DNA of 64,000 bases from Acidobacteriota bacterium (GTDB lineage Bacteria; Acidobacteriota; Vicinamibacteria; Vicinamibacterales; UBA8438), in contig VXRJ01000032.1 in the NCBI GenBank assembly GCA_009838525.1, positions 129,186-193,185 of the forward strand, written 5' to 3'. The position numbers were made by a program, and so were the translations under genes. The notes below the pieces were generated by a model. The model did not search any database. It was not told where the DNA came from and worked only from the letters and a program-made list of their open reading frames with translations. Of the stretch, positions 1,474-17,530 are shown piece after piece; the first letter of the stretch is position 1; each line of letters opens with the position of its first letter.

Positions 1474-3225
1474 ATGACCACCACACGCATTGCACTGACA
1501 CTATTTGCCGCGGCGCTGTTTGTCGCCGGCGCTCCGGAGATGGTCCGGGCCGCCGAGGCGGACTACCACCATGTGTACATCACCTCGTCCGCGCCTCCCG
1601 AATCGGTCCGGTGGTACATTCGGCATCTCGGCTGCGAGGCCATCGCCGACCGGGACGACGCCGCGAACTGCCACGGCGTCGACGTGGCCTTCATCGTGCA
1701 GCCGACTATGGGGAGCACGCAGGGCACCGGCGTGAACCACATCGGCTTCTCGTTCGCCGACCTGACGGCGAAGATGGCGGAACTCGAGGCGGTCGGCGTA
1801 CGCGGCTCGGGCGTCCGGCTTCAGCGCTTCTCCGATGGCTCGACGCTGCGCGAATCGCCGGGCGGCTATCTCCATGGCTACATCTTCGACCCGTGGGGCA
1901 CGCGTATCGAGATGGTGGAGGATTCTGACAAACTCGGTTTCCATCACATCCATCTGAGTGCGACCGATCCGGCGGCGACGCTCGCCTGGTATCAGCAGAT
2001 GTTCGGCGGCGAGCAGGCCACGCACGCGGGAACGGACGACGGCCTGCAATTCGACAACCTCTGGATCTTCGCGACCGAGCATCCGGAAGGGACGCCCGCG
2101 ACGACCGAGGGGCGCGCAATCGACCACATCGCCTTCGTCGTCGACGACCTCGACGCGGCGGCCGAAGAGATGCGCTCGGCAGGTGTCGAGTTCGCCGAGG
2201 ATCCACAAGTGCCCGCGAACGGCCGCACGTCGGCCCGGCGCGCGCTCGTCCGCGGCCCGGACAATGTCCGGCTGGCGGTGGTGGAGACGGGTTTCGCCGG
2301 CATCGACAGTGCGAGCGCGGCGCGGGTCTTTGCCGACGTGACCGAACCGTTCGACACGCCGCAGACACCGTGGGGGGAGCCGGATCTGCAGGGGGTCTGG
2401 ACCGGCAACGCGTCGCACGGCATCCCGCTTGAGCGCCCCGAGGACCTGGTTGACATCGACTCGCTCACTCCCGAGGAGGCGGCGGCGCGGCGCGAGCGCG
2501 GCACGCTCGGCAGCATTTGGGGTTACGAGCGCGAGTGGCGCGACACGACGCTCAGCTACGACAAGAACGCGCCGTCGACGCAGGTGGCGATGATCATCGA
2601 TCCGCCGGATGGCCGCATTCCCCCGCTGACGCCGGAAGGCGAGCAGCGCGCGGCCCAGGTGGCGGCCGACAACCGTCGCTATTCGACCAGCAACGTGGCC
2701 GGGCCGGAGGAAGTATCCCCCTACGTCCGCTGCATCACGCGCGGGTTGCCGAACCTGATGTTCCCGGGCGTCTACAACAACGGCCTGCAGATCTACCAGG
2801 GTCCCGGTTTCGTCGCCATTCAGAAGGAAATGATCCACGAGACGCGGGTCATTCCGACGACCGCCCAGCCGCGGCTGGGCGACAAGCTCGACACTTGGCT
2901 GGGCGACCCGCAGGGCCGCTGGGAGGGCGACACCCTGGTCGTCGAGACGACGAACTTCAACGGCCGCGCGTCGTTCCGCGGCTCGAGCCCCGACATGGTG
3001 CTGACCGAGCGGTTTACGCGGCTCAGCCCGACGCGACTGGAGTACCAGTTCACGGTGAGCGACCCGGCCATCTGGACCGCGCCGTACACGGGTCGCTTCA
3101 CGTTCGATCTGGACGACGAGCAGTATGAACTGGTCGAGTACGCCTGCCACGAAGGCAACTACGGGATGACGAACATCCTGAGCGGCGCGCGGGCGCGCGA
3201 GGCCGAAGAGGCTAGCGGCCGCTAG
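1474..3225 (+). CDS. secreted fusion: two VOC (glyoxalase-fold) domains plus PDLQG domain
   Basis: A 583-residue protein. ATG 1474 is chosen because GGAGGAGA lies about 8 bp upstream; in-frame TTG 1441 and ATG 1444 lack this. After a signal peptide (cleavage near VRAAEA) come a VOC domain at about residues 30-150 (HHVYITSS, NHIGFSF, IEMVED: the His/His/Glu pattern of metal-binding VOC folds) and a second at about 155-275 (HHIHLSATDP, DHIAFVVDDL). A full PDLQG domain follows from about residue 298 (TPWGEPDLQGVW, DPPDGRIPP, CITRGLPN, GDPQGRWEGDTLVVETTNF). The fusion is continuous in one frame. VOC proteins usually act on small molecules through a divalent metal, which hints that the PDLQG partner acts on the same kind of substrate; that is inference. 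Confidence 0.85.
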   Translation: MTTTRIALTLFAAALFVAGAPEMVRAAEADYHHVYITSSAPPESVRWYIRHLGCEAIADRDDAANCHGVDVAFIVQPTMGSTQGTGVNHIGFSFADLTAKMAELEAVGVRGSGVRLQRFSDGSTLRESPGGYLHGYIFDPWGTRIEMVEDSDKLGFHHIHLSATDPAATLAWYQQMFGGEQATHAGTDDGLQFDNLWIFATEHPEGTPATTEGRAIDHIAFVVDDLDAAAEEMRSAGVEFAEDPQVPANGRTSARRALVRGPDNVRLAVVETGFAGIDSASAARVFADVTEPFDTPQTPWGEPDLQGVWTGNASHGIPLERPEDLVDIDSLTPEEAAARRERGTLGSIWGYEREWRDTTLSYDKNAPSTQVAMIIDPPDGRIPPLTPEGEQRAAQVAADNRRYSTSNVAGPEEVSPYVRCITRGLPNLMFPGVYNNGLQIYQGPGFVAIQKEMIHETRVIPTTAQPRLGDKLDTWLGDPQGRWEGDTLVVETTNFNGRASFRGSSPDMVLTERFTRLSPTRLEYQFTVSDPAIWTAPYTGRFTFDLDDEQYELVEYACHEGNYGMTNILSGARAREAEEASGR

Positions 3226-3287: not shown

Positions 3288-3725
3288 ATGCGGAACAGAC
3301 TGACACTGACTTGCGCGGGTATCGCGCTCGCAGTCTTGCTGGCGGGCGGATCGGCGCTCGCGCACCACGCATTCTCGGCGGAGTTCGACGCGACGAAGCC
3401 GGTGGCGTTGCGGGGCAAGATCACCAAGATGGAGTGGATCAACCCGCATGCCTGGATGCATCTCGAGGTGACCAAGGAAGATGGCACCATCGAGAACTGG
3501 ATGATCGAGGCGGGCCCGCCGGGAGCGCTTGTCCGGCGCGGCTGGCGGAAGGACTCGGTCACTCCCGGTATCGAGGTGCTCGTCGAGGGCTACCAGGCGA
3601 TTGACGGCGCCCTACGCGCCAACGGCCGCGACGTGACGTTCCCCGACGGGACACGCCTGTTCGCCGGATCGTCCGGCACCGGCGCTCCGCTCGACGGTCG
3701 CGACCCGACCGAGCCGGCGCGCTAG
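3288..3725 (+). CDS. DUF6152-like secreted small protein
   Basis: A 145-residue protein with a signal peptide ending in ALAHH. Then come HAFSAEFDATKPV, LRGKITKMEWINPHAW and a C-terminal FPDGTRLFAGSSGTGAP. It is clearly homologous to 12832-13245 (same HHxFSAEFD, EWxNPHxWxH, FAGSSGTGAP blocks). I assign the family as DUF6152 from these motifs. The conserved histidines after the signal peptide could bind a metal, which is inference. It follows the VOC-PDLQG fusion by 62 bp, so it is probably cotranscribed. The second homologue also sits beside PDLQG genes, so the link is repeated. Confidence 0.8.
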   Translation: MRNRLTLTCAGIALAVLLAGGSALAHHAFSAEFDATKPVALRGKITKMEWINPHAWMHLEVTKEDGTIENWMIEAGPPGALVRRGWRKDSVTPGIEVLVEGYQAIDGALRANGRDVTFPDGTRLFAGSSGTGAPLDGRDPTEPAR

Positions 3726-3808: not shown

Positions 3809-4846
3809 CTACCGCGCTGCTTCTTCGGCCAGCCGCGCCGTCCGTAGCATCCCCACGATCGACACGTTCCCCTCGTGGCAGGCGAACTCGAAGAGCGCCT
3901 CGTCGCCGCCACGGTCGTGTAGCGGTAGTTCCGCCGTCCACGGCGTCTCCCACGTTGTCGGATCGGCAAGCGTCACGTGGTACATCAGGGTGTCCGCCGC
4001 CACCCGGGTGAACCGCTCCACCAGATGCAGGCCTTCCGCTGCCCCCTGGTACTCGCTCTTCGGTGAGAAGTTCGTCGTCTCGACCACCAGAGTGTCGCCT
4101 TCCCATCGGCCCCTCGAGTCGCCGTTCCATTGCCGCACCGACTCGGGAACGTGCGGCCTCCCGTCGATCGGAATGATCCGCGCGTCGTGGAAGGCCTCCA
4201 TCAGAAAGACGACGTGATCCGGCGTCTGGAAGATCTGGTAGTAGCTGTACGGGCCGGCGCCGAAGTTGCCGCCCAGGCGCGGCACACCGGTCGTAATGCA
4301 ACGGTGGTTGTTGCTCAGGTCCTCGGGTCCGAGCTTCTCGTTCCAGCCCCGATCGACTTCGGCGAGCCGCGCCGCCCCGTCCGGCCGCCGCGGCGGGATC
4401 CGCCCGTCCGGCGGGTCGATCACCAAAGAGGTCCGCTCGTCGAACACGAAGCCGATCATGCCGATCGAACTGCTGGTGGACCATGCCTCGTAGGTGTCGA
4501 CATCCTGGACCGCGGCGCGGAAGGCCCCGTCCGCCGTGGCGAACGCACTCCGGCCGTTGTCGAAGATCCGGTCCGCCCGTTCCTGCAGCGTAGCTACTTC
4601 CTCCGCGGTCCACTGGTCGCGGTCCGCCACGTAGGCGGGGCGCTCGAGGGGCGTGCCGCTGTCGCTTACCCAGACTCCCGACAGATCCGGCGTGCCGTCC
4701 GGCAGACGCGGCGTTTCCCAGCTCTCGGCCGCTTCCTGCGCCGCGGCCGGAAGCGCGATGAATCCCGCCGCAAACGCCGCCAGCGCGAACGTCACGACCG
4801 CCGGCCGCAAGCCGGCGATGCACCGATCCGGCATCCGTTCCTGCAT
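3809..4846 (-). CDS. PDLQG-family secreted protein of unknown function
   Basis: 345 residues from ATG 4846, chosen because AGGGGAGG lies 6-7 bp upstream; an in-frame start at 4894 lacks this. The signal peptide ends at ALPAAAQE. Family blocks follow: DGTPDLSGVW, TPLERP, DPPDGRIPP, CITTGVPRLG, a Tyr-rich segment, DGRPHVPESV, GDSRGRWEGDTLVVETTNF and FACHEGN. It belongs to the longer subtype, like the C-terminal domain of the fusion at 1474 (both keep a DPPDGRIPP block and end with ACHEGN plus an Ala/Arg-rich tail). It converges with the DUF6152 gene. No enzymatic motif is recognised. Confidence 0.85.
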   Translation of the reverse strand: MQERMPDRCIAGLRPAVVTFALAAFAAGFIALPAAAQEAAESWETPRLPDGTPDLSGVWVSDSGTPLERPAYVADRDQWTAEEVATLQERADRIFDNGRSAFATADGAFRAAVQDVDTYEAWSTSSSIGMIGFVFDERTSLVIDPPDGRIPPRRPDGAARLAEVDRGWNEKLGPEDLSNNHRCITTGVPRLGGNFGAGPYSYYQIFQTPDHVVFLMEAFHDARIIPIDGRPHVPESVRQWNGDSRGRWEGDTLVVETTNFSPKSEYQGAAEGLHLVERFTRVAADTLMYHVTLADPTTWETPWTAELPLHDRGGDEALFEFACHEGNVSIVGMLRTARLAEEAAR

Positions 4847-4953: not shown

Positions 4954-6120
4954 ATGTCGAAGGAAACGACCCGGCGTGATGTCCTGAAAGGAAGCGTGGC
5001 AGCGGCAGGTTTCGGGATGGTGGGGCTGCCTCACTGGGCGATGCCCGCACTCGCGCAGGGCGAGACACTGATGGAGTTCACGGACGTTCCGGAGGACACC
5101 CAGTGGATCCGCGGACCGGATCGCCGGATCATCGACGTCCGGCAGATCGACGGCCAATTCACGCCGATCAATCAGTTCTTCACGACACAGCATTACGGCC
5201 ACCCCGAGATCGACACCGCGACGCACCGGCTGCGCGTCTCCGGGCTGGTCGACACGCACCTCGAACTCTCTCTCGCCGACCTGCGCTCCATGCCGAGCCG
5301 CGATCTCGTCTTCGGCTTCGAGTGCTCCGGCAACCGCGGCCCCCTCAACGGCCTGTCGAGCAACGGCCGCTGGACCGGCGTCCCGCTGCGCGCGGTCCTC
5401 GAGCGCGCAGGTGTGCAGGACGAGGCGCGCGAGTTCGTCTTCTTTGGCGCCGACCGCGGCGAGGAAGAAGTCCTGTGGCGTGGCCGGACGTTCAACGTCG
5501 ATCAGCAGTACGGCCGGAGCCTAGAGCGAGATCAGGCCCTGGGCGACGAAGCCCTCCTCGCCTATGACCTGAACGGGGAGCCGCTGACCGCACACCAGGG
5601 CCGCCCCCTGCGGCTGCTGGTGCCCGGCTGGTACGGCGCGCCGAACGTCAAGTGGCTGGCCGAGATCCACGTGCAGAAGGACCAGTACCTCGGCCGGTGG
5701 CAGGCCCGTTCCTACCGGACGCTCAAGGGCGAGATGGTCAACGGCGAGATGAAGTGGAAGGAAACCGCCATCTCGACCATGCGCCTGAAGTCGTACGTCG
5801 CGCGGGTGACGGCGGTCGACGGCGCGCACAACGTCTTCGGCGTCGTGCTCAACGACGGGACGCCGATCCACTCCGTCGAGGTGCAGATCGACAACGGTCC
5901 GTGGCAGCACGCAACGCTCGACCCGTCCACGATGAGCGAGAGGTACTCCTGGAAGTTCTTCAACTACCGGTGGGAAGGCGCCACTCCGGGTGAGCACACC
6001 GTCACGTCGCGCGTGACTGACGCCAATGGCAACGTGCAGCCGACGGCGGAGGAACTCGAGAACAAGATGACGTTCCTCGAGTCCAACGAACAGTTCCCGC
6101 GGAACGTGATCATCGCGTAG
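4954..6120 (+). CDS. sulfite-oxidase-like molybdopterin enzyme, Tat-exported
   Basis: A 388-residue protein with a good ribosome site (GAGGGAGA). The N-terminus carries a twin-arginine signal (TTRRDVLKG, then a hydrophobic stretch ending ALAQG). The catalytic domain of the sulfite oxidase family spans about residues 80-260; Cys124 in FECSGN is the expected molybdenum ligand. The C-terminal third (about 275-388) matches the Mo-cofactor dimerisation domain, with an Ig-like fold. There is no haem b domain, as in bacterial SorA/SorT-type enzymes. Family membership is confident; the substrate (sulfite or another oxyanion or organosulfur compound) is not determined by the sequence. No adjacent cytochrome gene is visible. 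Confidence 0.88.
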   Translation: MSKETTRRDVLKGSVAAAGFGMVGLPHWAMPALAQGETLMEFTDVPEDTQWIRGPDRRIIDVRQIDGQFTPINQFFTTQHYGHPEIDTATHRLRVSGLVDTHLELSLADLRSMPSRDLVFGFECSGNRGPLNGLSSNGRWTGVPLRAVLERAGVQDEAREFVFFGADRGEEEVLWRGRTFNVDQQYGRSLERDQALGDEALLAYDLNGEPLTAHQGRPLRLLVPGWYGAPNVKWLAEIHVQKDQYLGRWQARSYRTLKGEMVNGEMKWKETAISTMRLKSYVARVTAVDGAHNVFGVVLNDGTPIHSVEVQIDNGPWQHATLDPSTMSERYSWKFFNYRWEGATPGEHTVTSRVTDANGNVQPTAEELENKMTFLESNEQFPRNVIIA

Positions 6121-11120: not shown

Positions 11121-12008
11121 CTACCGCGGCGACTCTTCGTGGGTGTGCATCTGCCGTTCGCCGGCCTCGACGGCCATCCGCCCCGCCGCCAGCCTATGCT
11201 TGTTGGTGACGCCCTCCCAGCACCCTTCCTCGTAGAACTCGTAGGGCTCGTCGGGGATGCGGGTCGTCGTGAACGCCAGCGTAAAGGGCTGCGTAAACAC
11301 GGTGGGATCCTCGACCGTCGCCTCGTAGTGGAGCGTGTCGGCGTCCGTCAGGGTCCATCGCTCGACCACCCGGAGCGACTCGCTGTAGAAGCTCCCATGG
11401 GAATCGAGCCACGGCACGTCGTTGAAGTTCCTGGTGTCGACGACCAACGTGTCGCCCTCCCAGCGGCCACGTGAGTCGCCGTTGAACAGCACGATGTCCT
11501 CGCCCACGTGCGGGCGTCCGTCCATCGGGATGATGCGGTAGGCGTGGGCCCATTCGTAGAGAATGACGACGTAGTCGGCGTTCTGACGTATCTGCAGATC
11601 TCCGCGATAGTTGCTGCGCGGCACCCCGAGCAGCAGGCAGCGATCCTCCGGATCGATGTGTTCCAGCTCGGTAGGTGTCTCCATATCCCACAGATACTGG
11701 TTTCGCTTCTCCAACGCCCACTGCTGGTAGGGAATCCGCCCGTCCGGCGGGTCGGTAATCAACTGAAAGGGAAGCCCCAGGCGCTCCGGCCCGCGGCTCT
11801 GCATTCGGGCGTGGATCGGATCGCAGCAACCGTCTTCGATGCTGTGCGACGCGTTGACGGGTCCACCGCGCCAGTACCCCTGCAGGTCGGGACGGCCATC
11901 GTCAGTGCGAGGCAATGCCCCGGACGGCTCCTGACCCGCGACTGACAGCGACGCAACGGCAAGAACGGCGGCAAGTGCGAGCACCGTCCGGATCACTCGA
12001 CTACTCAT
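11121..12008 (-). CDS. PDLQG-family secreted protein of unknown function
   Basis: 295 residues from ATG 12008, which has GAGGGGG 6 bp upstream; the frame is open further but that part is the antisense shadow of the next gene. Signal peptide ending at SVAGQE, then DGRPDLQGYWRGG, DPPDGRIPYQQW, CLLLGVPRSNY, DGRPHVGEDI, GDSRGRWEGDTLVVDTRNF and DPTVFTQPF. Third gene of a same-strand run with DUF6152 and another PDLQG gene. A His-rich end (MHTHEESPR) is unusual among the copies. Confidence 0.87.
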   Translation of the reverse strand: MSSRVIRTVLALAAVLAVASLSVAGQEPSGALPRTDDGRPDLQGYWRGGPVNASHSIEDGCCDPIHARMQSRGPERLGLPFQLITDPPDGRIPYQQWALEKRNQYLWDMETPTELEHIDPEDRCLLLGVPRSNYRGDLQIRQNADYVVILYEWAHAYRIIPMDGRPHVGEDIVLFNGDSRGRWEGDTLVVDTRNFNDVPWLDSHGSFYSESLRVVERWTLTDADTLHYEATVEDPTVFTQPFTLAFTTTRIPDEPYEFYEEGCWEGVTNKHRLAAGRMAVEAGERQMHTHEESPR

Positions 12009-12039
12009 CGAAACCCCCTCGAACCTGTCAACGTTTGGG

Positions 12040-12816
12040 TCACTTGTCAGCCGCCAGTTCCCGCTCGGAATAGGCATAGCACTCGTACTCCAGAAGCTGG
12101 AGGTGCGCCTCCTGGCGACGGTAGAGCGGCATGCTAATGGTCCACGGCCGCGTGAAGACGTTCGGATCCTCGATGGTTGCTTCGTAGAGCAGATGATCGG
12201 GGCCTGTCGGCGTGTAACGCTCGACCACGTGCAGGGCCTCGCTGTGGAAGTTCCCGGCCCGATCGAACCAGGTCCGATCGTTGAAGTGGATGACGTCGAC
12301 GACCAGCGTGTCACCCTCCCATCGCCCCCGCGAATCCCCCATCCAGAAATCGATGTGCCCCTCCGGGTGCGGACTGCCGTCCATGTAGATGGTGCGCGTG
12401 ACGTGCAGGTACTCGTACAGAATCAACACGCGATCCGAGAACTGCAGGATCTGAAACGGATACGGCATGTACGTGATCCGCGGGACACCCGGCATGTAGC
12501 ACTGCGTCTCGGGGTCGGCGGTCAGGCGGTTCTCGTAGTTCTCCTGCTTCTGCGCCAGCGCCCACTCCTGGTACGGGATCTCGTTGCCGACGACGACGCC
12601 CTGCCCGGCTGGCACGCCGGCGCTCGCGGAATGGTCCTGAATATCCCAGGCGGCGGTGTTGAGCGCCTGCCAGATCCCCTGGAGGTCGGGATGACCATCC
12701 GGCGTGCGCGGGGGAACGTAGGCCTCGTCGGAACTGGCCTGCGCCAAACCCGCCGACGGCAGCAGGACGATCAGGCAGGTGCAGGCGGCCGCGACAACGA
12801 CCGGCAGGGACCGCAT
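12040..12816 (-). CDS. PDLQG-family secreted protein of unknown function
   Basis: 258 residues. Signal peptide ending at AGLAQ, then DGHPDLQGIWQ, PAGQGVVVG, CYMPGVPR, MPYPFQILQ, GDSRGRWEGDTLVVDVIHF, WFDRAGNF and DPNVFTRPW. It is closest to the 600-1436 protein. Its start is 15 bp after the DUF6152 stop, so translation is probably coupled in the operon. No catalytic signature is recognised. Confidence 0.87.
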   Translation of the reverse strand: MRSLPVVVAAACTCLIVLLPSAGLAQASSDEAYVPPRTPDGHPDLQGIWQALNTAAWDIQDHSASAGVPAGQGVVVGNEIPYQEWALAQKQENYENRLTADPETQCYMPGVPRITYMPYPFQILQFSDRVLILYEYLHVTRTIYMDGSPHPEGHIDFWMGDSRGRWEGDTLVVDVIHFNDRTWFDRAGNFHSEALHVVERYTPTGPDHLLYEATIEDPNVFTRPWTISMPLYRRQEAHLQLLEYECYAYSERELAADK

Positions 12817-12831
12817 GGATGCGCCGCGTGT

Positions 12832-13245
12832 CTAGCGCTGGCCAGGTGGCACCGGCGCTCCGGTGCCCGACGACCCGGCGAAAAAGTCGCGGCCGTCCGG
12901 GAACGTGATGGTGATGCCGTTGGCGGTCGGCGTCCCGTCCTTGGCCATGTAGCCCTCGACCACGAACTCGATTCCAACCGGGAAGTCGCTGCGTCGCAGG
13001 CCACGCCGCAATAGCGCGGTCGGATTACCGAGCTCGACCGCCCAGTTCACGACCTGGCCGTCGACACCCTCCACGTCCATGTGCAACCACCCGTGCGGGT
13101 TGACCCACTCGAGTTCGGTCAACTTGCCCTGAAGCGTGATGGGCTTCTCGATGTCGAACTCCGCCGAAAACGAGTGGTGCGCCGATCCGGTTGAAGCCAC
13201 CAGCAGCACACCGGCACTCACGAGCGCGATCGCCAGCGTTCTCAT
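12832..13245 (-). CDS. DUF6152-like secreted small protein
   Basis: 137 residues from ATG 13245 (GGAGGT immediately upstream). Signal peptide ending at GSAHH, then SFSAEFDIEKPI, LQGKLTELEWVNPHGWLHM, and FPDGRDFFAGSSGTGAP. Homologous along its full length to 3288-3725. First gene of the DUF6152-PDLQG-PDLQG operon. The repeated linkage suggests joint action at the cell surface or periplasm, which is inference. Confidence 0.83.
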   Translation of the reverse strand: MRTLAIALVSAGVLLVASTGSAHHSFSAEFDIEKPITLQGKLTELEWVNPHGWLHMDVEGVDGQVVNWAVELGNPTALLRRGLRRSDFPVGIEFVVEGYMAKDGTPTANGITITFPDGRDFFAGSSGTGAPVPPGQR

Positions 13246-13483: not shown

Positions 13484-16400
13484 CTATTGCGCCGGCAGGA
13501 GACGGATAATCCGGTCGTCGCCGTGCCGCGGCTCGCCACGGCCATCCCGATTGCCCGTCGCAATGAACAGCTCGCCGTCCGGGCCCGCTACGACGTCGCG
13601 CAGGCGACCGAACTCGCCCTTCAGCAGACGCTCGGTTCCGGCGATTCGGTCGGGATCCGCCCGATCGAAAAGCACGCGCAGGAGGTGTGCGCCATCGAGG
13701 GCCGCCAGGAAGAGATCGTGCTGGAAACCGCCCATCTCCGACCCTGCGTAGAATGCGGCCCCGCCCACGACCATTGACCCGGAGACAAGCAGGTCGGGCC
13801 GACGCATTCCGGGCAGCATCGCTTCGTCGACACCCCCCGGCCACCCGTAGTTGCCCCCCGCCTCGACGCGATTGAGCTCCGTGGTCCCGGGCCGGCCCGG
13901 TTCGGCTACCCACAAGGCGCCGGTGACCGGATGCCAGGCGAGGCCGCGCGGGTCACGATGCCCCATCGAGTACACGGGCGACGCACGCGGATTGTCGCGT
14001 GGAGTCGTCCCGTCCGGCCGCAGGCGCAGGATCTTGCCGCCGTACGACGCCATGTCCTGCGCCGCCCCGGAATCCGCATCACCCAGCGCCACGTAGAGAA
14101 GACCGTCGGGCCCGAATCGGAGCGCGCCGCCGCCGTCCAAGGCAGCCAGCGGCAGGTCATCGAGCAGGATCGCCGCCTCGGCCAGCGTGTTCTCCACCTC
14201 GCGGTACCGGACAATTCGCGCCACCGGTGACGCGTTGGGGCCAACCCTGGCCTGAAGCAGATAGACGAGACGGTTGTGCTCGAACTCGGGGTCGAGGGTG
14301 ATCCCGAGCAGGAGCTCATCGCCGGCAGCGAGCGCTTCGCCGAGCGTCAGCGCCGGTTGCGGCACCAGCCGTCCTTCCTTCACGACTCGCACCCGGCCGG
14401 GTAGCTCGGCTACGAACAGACGGCCGTCTGGAGCGAACGCAAGGCCGGTCGGGACTTCAAGGCCGCTCACTACGGTCTTCGTCCGGAACCGCGTTCCGTC
14501 GAGAGCCGCGAACTCTCCGCCGACACCGTCCGCGGACCGTGGCGCCGACGGCCCGGGCAGCGACGGACGTTCGGGAACGGCCGTCTCCTGGGCGTCAGCC
14601 CGGGGAATCGGATATGTCTTGCCATCGCCGCCAACTGGACGCCCGAAGAAGATGAAGTCGTTGCTGAACAAGCCGTCCGGATTCTGGACCTGCACGAAGT
14701 GGATACCGGGCAGTGACTGGAGTTCGATGACAACCCGCTCGCCCAGGCAGTCGGGCAGTTGTCCGCCTTCGCAACGCACATGGCCGGGCACCCGTCTACC
14801 GTTGACGAAAACGCTCGCTCCCTCCCGGATGTGCCGGCCACCGACGAGGATGCTTCCGTCCGACGCTGACGGGAATTCCTGGGCGCCCCGCTGCTCCTGA
14901 ATCGGCCCGACGCTCCAGAGGGCGGGCTGCGGATGGTCGACGTCCACGTTGACGCCGAGACGCGCGGTGAAAGTGCCGACAAAGCGGCCCTCGGCCGCAA
15001 GCGCCATCAGCTCGGCGCGGCTGAATGACTGCGCATCATCGCCTCGCACGGAGTAGAAGCCACGGTCGAACTGCAATGCCACCGACGTCGCGGCCGCGCC
15101 CGTCAGGAACAGGCCCTCACCCCTGAGGAGAACGGCGCCTTCCCGCGCGGCCAACTCCAGGGCGTCCAGCAGGTCCTCCGTCAACGGAGTCTCGCCGGAC
15201 GTGTGGTTCAACGTGACCTGCCGGGCAAAAGCCCCGGAGAAGCCGGTGCTACCCTCCACCACCATGTCCCAGAAGACCGCGCGCTGGCCGCGCAGGGCGC
15301 CCCACACGCTCCGTTCGGGAAAGGCATTGTCCCGGTCGGACTGGCCTCGAAGGTCGATCACGTTCCAGCGACCCTGCGGCAGGATGAGCCACCGGTCGTA
15401 GGCGCCTCGCCACGTCGGTGCGTCCATGCCGGTGAACGGCGTATTCGTACTCACCCAGAACGGCATCCGGTGGCAGTTGCCGCACGTGTTGATTCTGCCG
15501 TCGCTTCCGTCGGGCACCCCGTGCATGTGGAAGCGCTTGAACCCGGTCGCCGCATCGTCTGACAGGACGTTCGAATAGGAGCGCCGCTGGGCGGGCGGGT
15601 ACGGAACACTGAGCAGGAACTTCGCCAGATCATCGCGCTCGGCCCCGGACAGGGCGCCCGCCTTGCCCTCGTCGTTGACGGGGCACTCCCCCACCAAGCA
15701 CATGGTGGTCCGGAGCGTGGCGTCCACCAGAAACCGCGTGCAGCTCTCCTCATCCCCGATGTCGCAGTTGGGCGCCACGCCCGTCCGCGTACTGGCCGTG
15801 TTGACCCCGCCGTAGGGATCGCCCGGAATCCCGTCCCAGTGATAGGGAGCCGTATCGCGCAGACCGCGAATGGGCATCGTCGAGCGGGGCGGGATCTGCG
15901 TGCAGCCCTGCCGGTCGCAGACCGGAGTGTTCAACACCCACACCAACTGGTCGGTGTGACCATCCGGATGGCAGCTCTCGCATGAGAAGGTGCCCGTCGT
16001 CGACGCCCCGGCGTCGTTGAACGCGACGCGCCCGCGCTTGACGGCGGCATGCGTCGGATCGTCGAGCCCGATGGTCGCAACGACACGCGGGGCGGAGGAA
16101 TCGGATACGTCGACGTGGGAGACCGTGTTGGCCACCGCGTTGAGGACCCAGGCTCCCGCGGGACCGCCGCCCGCGTTCGATTGGAGCGCGATTCCCCTGG
16201 GCGCCGCGTCCACGTCCGTGCGCCCGAGCACGTTCCCGCTCGCCGTATCGACGGTGAAGAGCTTGTCCGAACCGGCCGCGGCAACCACGAGCGTGGAATC
16301 ATCCTCGCTGATCTGAATCGCGAAGGGCGTAGCCAAGGCCAGGCCCGGCGCCGGATGGACCGGCGGCAGCGGTTCCAGTTCGATGAAGGCGGGCGCACCA

Positions 16401-17467
16401 CAGGCGCCGCCGAGGCAATCAACGCGGGTAATCCGATTGAGGAAGGCGCGGTTCTCCATCTCCGCCAGCCCTTCCTTCTCGGTGCCGGCGCGGCCGTTGG
16501 AGTCGTTCCGGGCTTCGGTCTGCGCGACAAAGACGCGCCCCCCGGAGTCGACGACGAGACCGTAGAGCAGCGTGCCCACCGTGCTGACGACGTCGACAAG
16601 CCTGTCGTTGCCGGTCTCGAACACGAAAAGGTCGCGGTCCGGAATGCCCGGATGCTTGACGATGTCGACGTCGATGCCCAGGGAGAGCACGTTGTTGTTG
16701 TCGACCACGTGCACCTGGGCGTCGAACGTGCAGAGTTCGCCACCAACCCTGCCGCGACAGCCCGAGATCTGCGTCTGATTGTTGGACTCGAACGGGATGA
16801 CATACAGAAGGCCGTCCCGGACGACGAGGGCGCGCGGATCCTGCGCCGTGATGGCAAGCCGGTTGACTACTTCGCGGGCACCCACGTCGATCACGGCGAC
16901 CTGGTTCTCGGACGAGAGAGCCACATACGCCTTCGCATTGCTGGCGAAGGCGATACCCACCGGTTCGTCGAAACGGGTCGCTCCGGTTTCCCTGTCGAAA
17001 TCCTGAACGGTGGCGACGACCTGCAGATAGGTGAGGCTGTCCGGATTGGTGTCGATCACGCTCACCGAGTCCGAGACATGGTTCGCGGCCCATACCTCGA
17101 GACCGTCCGGTCGCACCGCAAGCCCCACCGGGTCGATTCCGACGTCGATCCGCGCGACGACGGCGCGGCTGGACGCCTCGATGACGTCGACCGTGTCGGC
17201 GGGCGTGTTCGCGACGTAGACGTAGCCGCGATTCACGACGATCGGCGATGCATGGGGGCTGTTGAATGTCGGATGTCCCGCATCGCGCCAGCGATCCTCA
17301 GCACCTCGCCCGACCGGCTGGCCGAATCGCAGCGGGGCGGCGACACCGGGCGCGCTTCCGGCGCCCGCGTCGATGGGAAACTGCCGGGCATCCGTCAGGG
17401 CGAGCGCTACGAAACCCCCGACGGCAACCAGAATTCCCTTCGACAGCCGTGGCCGCGCCCCTGTCAT
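13484..17467 (-). CDS. large exported beta-propeller / cytochrome c / sorbosone dehydrogenase-like fusion
   Basis: 1327 residues from ATG 17467. An N-terminal signal-anchor is followed by a YVTN-type beta-propeller (about 70-480; repeats such as VYVANTPADTVDVI and VWAANHVSDSVSVID). Two haem c motifs come next, CESCH near residue 494 and CGNCH near 660, in a region resembling dihaem peroxidase/MauG-like or c-type domains. An IPT-like segment lies at about 880-960. The C-terminal third from about 995 (TKTVVSGLEVPTGLAFAPDG, LRFGPDGLLYVALGD, HRDPRGLAWHP) is a glucose/sorbosone dehydrogenase-type propeller, usually PQQ-dependent. The frame is continuous with no sign of an assembly join. It probably oxidises a substrate and passes electrons to its own haems; the substrate is unknown. 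Confidence 0.83.
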   Translation of the reverse strand: MTGARPRLSKGILVAVGGFVALALTDARQFPIDAGAGSAPGVAAPLRFGQPVGRGAEDRWRDAGHPTFNSPHASPIVVNRGYVYVANTPADTVDVIEASSRAVVARIDVGIDPVGLAVRPDGLEVWAANHVSDSVSVIDTNPDSLTYLQVVATVQDFDRETGATRFDEPVGIAFASNAKAYVALSSENQVAVIDVGAREVVNRLAITAQDPRALVVRDGLLYVIPFESNNQTQISGCRGRVGGELCTFDAQVHVVDNNNVLSLGIDVDIVKHPGIPDRDLFVFETGNDRLVDVVSTVGTLLYGLVVDSGGRVFVAQTEARNDSNGRAGTEKEGLAEMENRAFLNRITRVDCLGGACGAPAFIELEPLPPVHPAPGLALATPFAIQISEDDSTLVVAAAGSDKLFTVDTASGNVLGRTDVDAAPRGIALQSNAGGGPAGAWVLNAVANTVSHVDVSDSSAPRVVATIGLDDPTHAAVKRGRVAFNDAGASTTGTFSCESCHPDGHTDQLVWVLNTPVCDRQGCTQIPPRSTMPIRGLRDTAPYHWDGIPGDPYGGVNTASTRTGVAPNCDIGDEESCTRFLVDATLRTTMCLVGECPVNDEGKAGALSGAERDDLAKFLLSVPYPPAQRRSYSNVLSDDAATGFKRFHMHGVPDGSDGRINTCGNCHRMPFWVSTNTPFTGMDAPTWRGAYDRWLILPQGRWNVIDLRGQSDRDNAFPERSVWGALRGQRAVFWDMVVEGSTGFSGAFARQVTLNHTSGETPLTEDLLDALELAAREGAVLLRGEGLFLTGAAATSVALQFDRGFYSVRGDDAQSFSRAELMALAAEGRFVGTFTARLGVNVDVDHPQPALWSVGPIQEQRGAQEFPSASDGSILVGGRHIREGASVFVNGRRVPGHVRCEGGQLPDCLGERVVIELQSLPGIHFVQVQNPDGLFSNDFIFFGRPVGGDGKTYPIPRADAQETAVPERPSLPGPSAPRSADGVGGEFAALDGTRFRTKTVVSGLEVPTGLAFAPDGRLFVAELPGRVRVVKEGRLVPQPALTLGEALAAGDELLLGITLDPEFEHNRLVYLLQARVGPNASPVARIVRYREVENTLAEAAILLDDLPLAALDGGGALRFGPDGLLYVALGDADSGAAQDMASYGGKILRLRPDGTTPRDNPRASPVYSMGHRDPRGLAWHPVTGALWVAEPGRPGTTELNRVEAGGNYGWPGGVDEAMLPGMRRPDLLVSGSMVVGGAAFYAGSEMGGFQHDLFLAALDGAHLLRVLFDRADPDRIAGTERLLKGEFGRLRDVVAGPDGELFIATGNRDGRGEPRHGDDRIIRLLPAQ

Positions 17468-17530
17468 CAATGGTCCCGCGAAACCAGTCCGACCTCGTAG
17501 TAGTATGAAACCGCGGTCAAGGGAGATCTA

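Follow-up and report, generated by a model that had tools for sequence, protein, structure and literature searches.

The described protein closest in fold to the one highlighted here is the two-domain glyoxalase I of Zea mays (PDB 5d7z, 6bnx), which is also a tandem VOC protein with one complete metal site. In a tomato enzyme modelled on maize glyoxalase I, Val278 replaces the glutamate of the second site, which was read as an inactive site (PMC11168688). Here we describe a bacterial tandem VOC protein that continues into a further domain, belonging to the PDLQG family, and is encoded next to a protein of the family DUF6152; a literature search returned no relevant paper naming DUF6152 or PDLQG. 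The gene was found in a 64,000-nucleotide stretch of an Acidobacteriota contig (VXRJ01000032.1), hereafter the window. We propose that its product is an exported two-part protein, which would have arisen by the one-time joining of adjacent exported proteins and in which a metal-dependent VOC unit and a barrel would share a small molecule. To this reading we assign a probability of roughly two in three.

The fusion gene (window 1474-3225, plus strand) is a single frame of 583 amino acids with no internal stop. Its ATG is preceded by a purine-rich, ribosome-site-like stretch and lies 37 bases past the stop codon of a same-strand upstream gene. The product begins with a signal peptide (residues ~1-26, 1474-1551), recognised from the sequence as an N-terminal hydrophobic segment that the aligned fusions have in common. 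It is followed by VOC domain 1 (residues ~29-150, 1558-1923), delimited by an AF2 model, PDB profile alignment and ligand counts, and by VOC domain 2 (residues ~154-275, 1933-2298), in which Pfam PF00903 matches residues 156-268. A linker (residues ~276-295, 2299-2358) leads to the PDLQG domain (residues ~296-578, 2359-3207), for which an AF2 model (pLDDT 90), Foldseek, VIA-align and the alignments A2 and A3 were used. The first-pass annotation, in which a single frame placed two VOC domains and a whole PDLQG domain behind one signal peptide, is thus confirmed. Pfam matches comprise Glyoxalase PF00903 (E 1.5e-18, two stretches) and Glyoxalase_4, and the C-terminal half has zero matches in Pfam or NCBIfam. 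Export is supported by the predicted signal peptide, and the location is probably the periplasm rather than the outer membrane or the outside. Since the only cysteines of the protein (54 and 66 in VOC domain 1, 420 and 558 in the PDLQG domain) are invariant across 69 fusions, they would fit two disulfides in an exported protein.

The fusion is the second gene of an operon, all of it on the plus strand. The first gene, SHORT (600-1436; 278 amino acids counted from 600, with an alternative start possible at 633), encodes an exported, shorter PDLQG-family protein, which hhalign matches to the PDLQG profile A3 with a probability of 99.6 and an E-value of 7e-25. The third (3288-3725) encodes an exported DUF6152 protein of 145 amino acids (Pfam PF19649, E 9.4e-33). 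A promoter scan of the operon gave no signal above chance. SHORT lies immediately upstream in 40 of the 64 fusions with enough upstream flank and DUF6152 downstream in 26 of the 54 with enough downstream flank; at least one module partner is present at 39 of the 50 fusion loci having both flanks, and the other 11 have no recognisable partner beside them. These flanks were counted on six-frame open reading frames, as loci of low GC content contain genes that a simple gene caller overlooks. Elsewhere in the window a second SHORT-PDLQG-DUF6152 set is encoded on the minus strand (11121-13245), in this case without a VOC domain, and is adjoined by a large gene with a glucose/sorbosone dehydrogenase domain (13484-17470). 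The window also encodes a Tat-signal SorA/SoxC-like molybdopterin oxidoreductase (4954-6120, plus strand), which scores below all NCBIfam equivalog cut-offs.

The architecture is not restricted to this contig. A search of other genomes, which the first-pass annotation had suggested, yielded 68 further distinct fusions of full length, spread over many assemblies from both Acidobacteriota and Gammaproteobacteria. They align end to end through residues 272-297, with a linker region that measures 25-30 residues in every one of them. The first-pass annotation would have given up the fusion had the architecture been absent elsewhere and an assembly join been present near 2340-2365; as 68 relatives cross that junction, an assembly join is ruled out as the source of the fusion. 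An assembly or annotation artefact at 2340-2365 more generally, for which we found no supporting point, is contradicted by the same relatives and can be given practically no weight. A scan of GTDB genomes recovered dozens of full-length relatives at ~52-78% identity, and the hosts comprise Vicinamibacteria, Thermoanaerobaculia, Holophagales, Bryobacterales and several Gammaproteobacteria. Within the family of the window's genome the fusion is present in 26 of 28 genomes, as counted from open-frame lengths, and it also occurs in another class, in 19 genomes belonging to a single genus. The distribution is patchy, since a phylum sample of 396 genomes gave the fusion in two families only, that of the window and one other (f56); the Bryobacterales fusions came from the GTDB scan, outside this sample. 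Truncated or decaying extra copies lie between intact tandem copies at L050 (2795-4263) and on contig C7 of genome G007 (4259-4760).

The origin of the fusion can be approached through an unfused relative. At locus L090 (L177 denotes the same locus) the order is SHORT, VOC-VOC, PDLQG and DUF6152, all as separate genes. The VOC-VOC gene carries a signal peptide and ends in a stop codon of its own, and the PDLQG gene, likewise with a separate signal peptide, starts 23 bases later; the linker of the fusion occupies the position of this stop and second signal peptide. With standalone exported VOC-VOC proteins as the outgroup, the VOC-VOC tree groups all of the 41 fusions in a single clade (100/99), to which L090 is sister (100/98). 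In the PDLQG tree the fusions likewise form one clade (100/99), including two fusion pieces, one cut by the locus edge (L018) and one from a broken copy (L050), and L090 and L091 fall directly outside. Because the trees of both halves put L090 just outside the fusions, the data fit one fusion event, apparently from adjacent genes of one operon. Since L090 sits next to the outgroup, the trees favour it as the parent state over an early fission, short of certainty; its genome (G020) carries a fusion at another place too.

The first-pass annotation had argued that fusion implies a shared job. This argument is strengthened by the unfused adjacent genes at L090 and by the single origin followed by retention across classes and two phyla, on account of which the VOC-VOC pair and the PDLQG domain very probably share one job outside the cytoplasm. 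Points against this single-origin, shared-job explanation include the 11 flanked fusion loci without a recognisable module partner, and L091: the PDLQG tree puts this unfused gene close to the base of the fusion clade, and gene calling places no VOC gene next to it. It could also be argued that the fusion does no more than couple two co-exported proteins so that their dosage is equal or their stability assured, each domain handling a different molecule of one pathway. This would agree with the very diverse operon partners of PDLQG genes elsewhere in the genome, which show that the family as a whole is not bound to VOC chemistry, but the pair is kept across classes and two phyla and its unfused form keeps the same operon order, which makes such an explanation rather improbable.

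The AF2 model of the full protein has a pLDDT of 88. In fold the VOC pair comes closest to maize glyoxalase I with its two domains (Z 22.2, rmsd 3.0, 242 residues), followed by GLOD4 and 2,6-dichlorohydroquinone dioxygenase. Two specific identities were rejected: glyoxalase I (lactoylglutathione lyase), for which the NCBIfam equivalog TIGR00068 scores 33 bits where the cut-off is 120, and a fosfomycin resistance thiol transferase (Fos), with at most 29 bits against NCBIfam cut-offs of 171-310. In profile alignments H33, H89 and E146 of VOC domain 1 fall on known ligand positions. VOC domain 2 provides H158 and H218, and its A268 aligns with the C-terminal Glu of human glyoxalase I (the 'IEIL' strand) in the third-ligand place, which matches the Val replacing Glu in plant glyoxalase I. 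With site geometry taken from alignment rather than from atomic coordinates, either pairing of the modules gives one 2-His-1-Glu site and one site without Glu.

Among the 69 fusions, H218 is unchanged in all, H89 is kept in 64, E146 in 63, H158 in 62 and H33, the most variable, in 53; the full pattern H-H-E-H-H-A occurs in 39. Sums over these ligand patterns show the set H89-E146-H158, which would come together in one site under a glyoxalase-I-like pairing of the modules, intact in 54 fusions versus 44 for H33-H89-E146, and we lean for this reason towards the swapped pairing, without proof. Judged by sequence, one complete 2-His-1-Glu set appears to be present in the window protein and most relatives and lost in some; conservation of the ligands is thus incomplete, and a metalloenzyme function may not extend to every member. 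The main rival to the metalloenzyme reading, a non-catalytic binding pair, starts from here: the VOC unit would be a non-enzymatic module that, like bleomycin-resistance-type VOC proteins, sequesters a small molecule (a toxin or a signal) outside the cytoplasm, and the PDLQG domain would be a second binding site. Ligand losses in a minority of fusions, the degenerate second site and the ligand-carrier type of the PDLQG fold would all suit this proposal, but the complete H89-E146-H158 set in 54 of 69 fusions speaks against it, and we consider it unlikely. An exported tandem VOC metalloenzyme with a ligand-binding barrel attached most likely describes the protein.

The PDLQG domain modelled on its own (pLDDT 90) takes the form of an antiparallel barrel to which a helical insertion and a C-terminal helix are added. 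Its core aligns in VIA-align with FABP5, CRBP1 and NanoLuc at Z ~10 over ~120 residues; the best Foldseek E-value is only 2.2e-3, and the barrel match spans ~40% of the domain. We therefore read the modelled fold as a probable calycin-like (FABP/lipocalin-like) barrel, with moderate confidence. The domain carries the family marks seen in A2 and A3, i.e., the PDLQG motif, the invariant cysteine pair and the C-terminal CHEGN-type motif, and C420, C558, R419 and E560 are invariant in A2. None of 117 aligned PDLQG domains gave any Pfam match, and sequence searches of the PDB, Pfam and NCBIfam gave no relatives beyond one weak, probably chance NCBIfam match (1/117). A PDLQG domain with a C-terminal Lipocalin_5 domain was observed at L152 (4682-6127), and the Lipocalin_5 part recurs in 13 of the family's 28 genomes, where most of the frames are 430-590 amino acids long.

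In its own genome the PDLQG half of the fusion matches ~75 other PDLQG genes at up to ~50% identity, and gene calls around these matches give 79 family genes or fragments. Altogether this 4.3-Mb genome contains ~77 PDLQG-family genes, many in tandem and without a Pfam or NCBIfam model. Their operon partners are diverse, the commonest being PQQ-type beta-propeller proteins (6/53). Because of this diversity, the VOC fusion informs one PDLQG clade and not all ~77 paralogues, so that the earlier suggestion of a functional hint to the family holds for that clade and does not extend to the family as a whole. We speculate, tentatively, that PDLQG proteins might constitute an undescribed and very large class, made up of exported barrels that bind small molecules or act as catalysts, each with its own substrate and envelope enzyme, of which the VOC fusion would be a self-contained case uniting a metal-dependent VOC and its barrel in one protein.

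How could the two parts work together? After Sec export, the tandem VOC unit would fold like two-domain glyoxalase I and hold one divalent metal at its sole complete 2-His-1-Glu site, the second site being degenerate. The molecule bound by the VOC unit, small, organic and probably hydrophobic or oxygenated, would also be bound by the PDLQG barrel, which would either present it to the VOC site or hold the VOC product, and SHORT and DUF6152 might act on the same molecule or complex. We infer the metal binding, the small-molecule cavity of the barrel and the shared substrate. A small organic substrate, as the first-pass annotation envisaged, agrees in kind with the barrel fold, the glyoxalase-I-like VOC pair and the one 2-His-1-Glu site; its alternative of a metal-bound substrate found no support. 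The PDLQG family has previously been without a functional handle, and the single-origin fusion, the unfused sister operon and the modelled fold now give one of its clades a testable role, that of exported proteins in which the binding of a small molecule is linked to a tandem VOC site.

Several known systems can be compared with the fusion. A standalone exported VOC-VOC protein of the same genome (C4:31692) shares 41% identity, a signal peptide and the same tandem VOC, but has no PDLQG domain and lies outside any SHORT-DUF6152 operon. These genomes often encode exported VOC-VOC proteins, so the earlier statement that exported VOC domains are uncommon is wrong for this lineage; genomes of f56 also carry two exported tandem-VOC genes side by side (L172:5303-7053 and L173:5435-7233). 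DUF6152 is an operon partner of the fusion as well as of other PDLQG genes. FABPs, cellular retinol-binding proteins and NanoLuc possess a barrel core like that of the PDLQG domain, which differs from calycin-type barrels in its helical insertion, C-terminal helix and two invariant cysteines, with no sequence relation detected. The tandem VOC fold is also like that of the PcpA/LinE-type hydroquinone dioxygenase (4huz) and GLOD4 (3zi1, 9csj), both at Z ~19, but the fusion is exported and its rmsd to 4huz is larger (4.1). With Zea mays glyoxalase I the fusion has in common a second site lacking Glu, taken by Val278 in the plant enzyme and by Ala268 here, whereas it differs in its low identity (~14%), its export, its invariant C54 and C66 and its extra domain.
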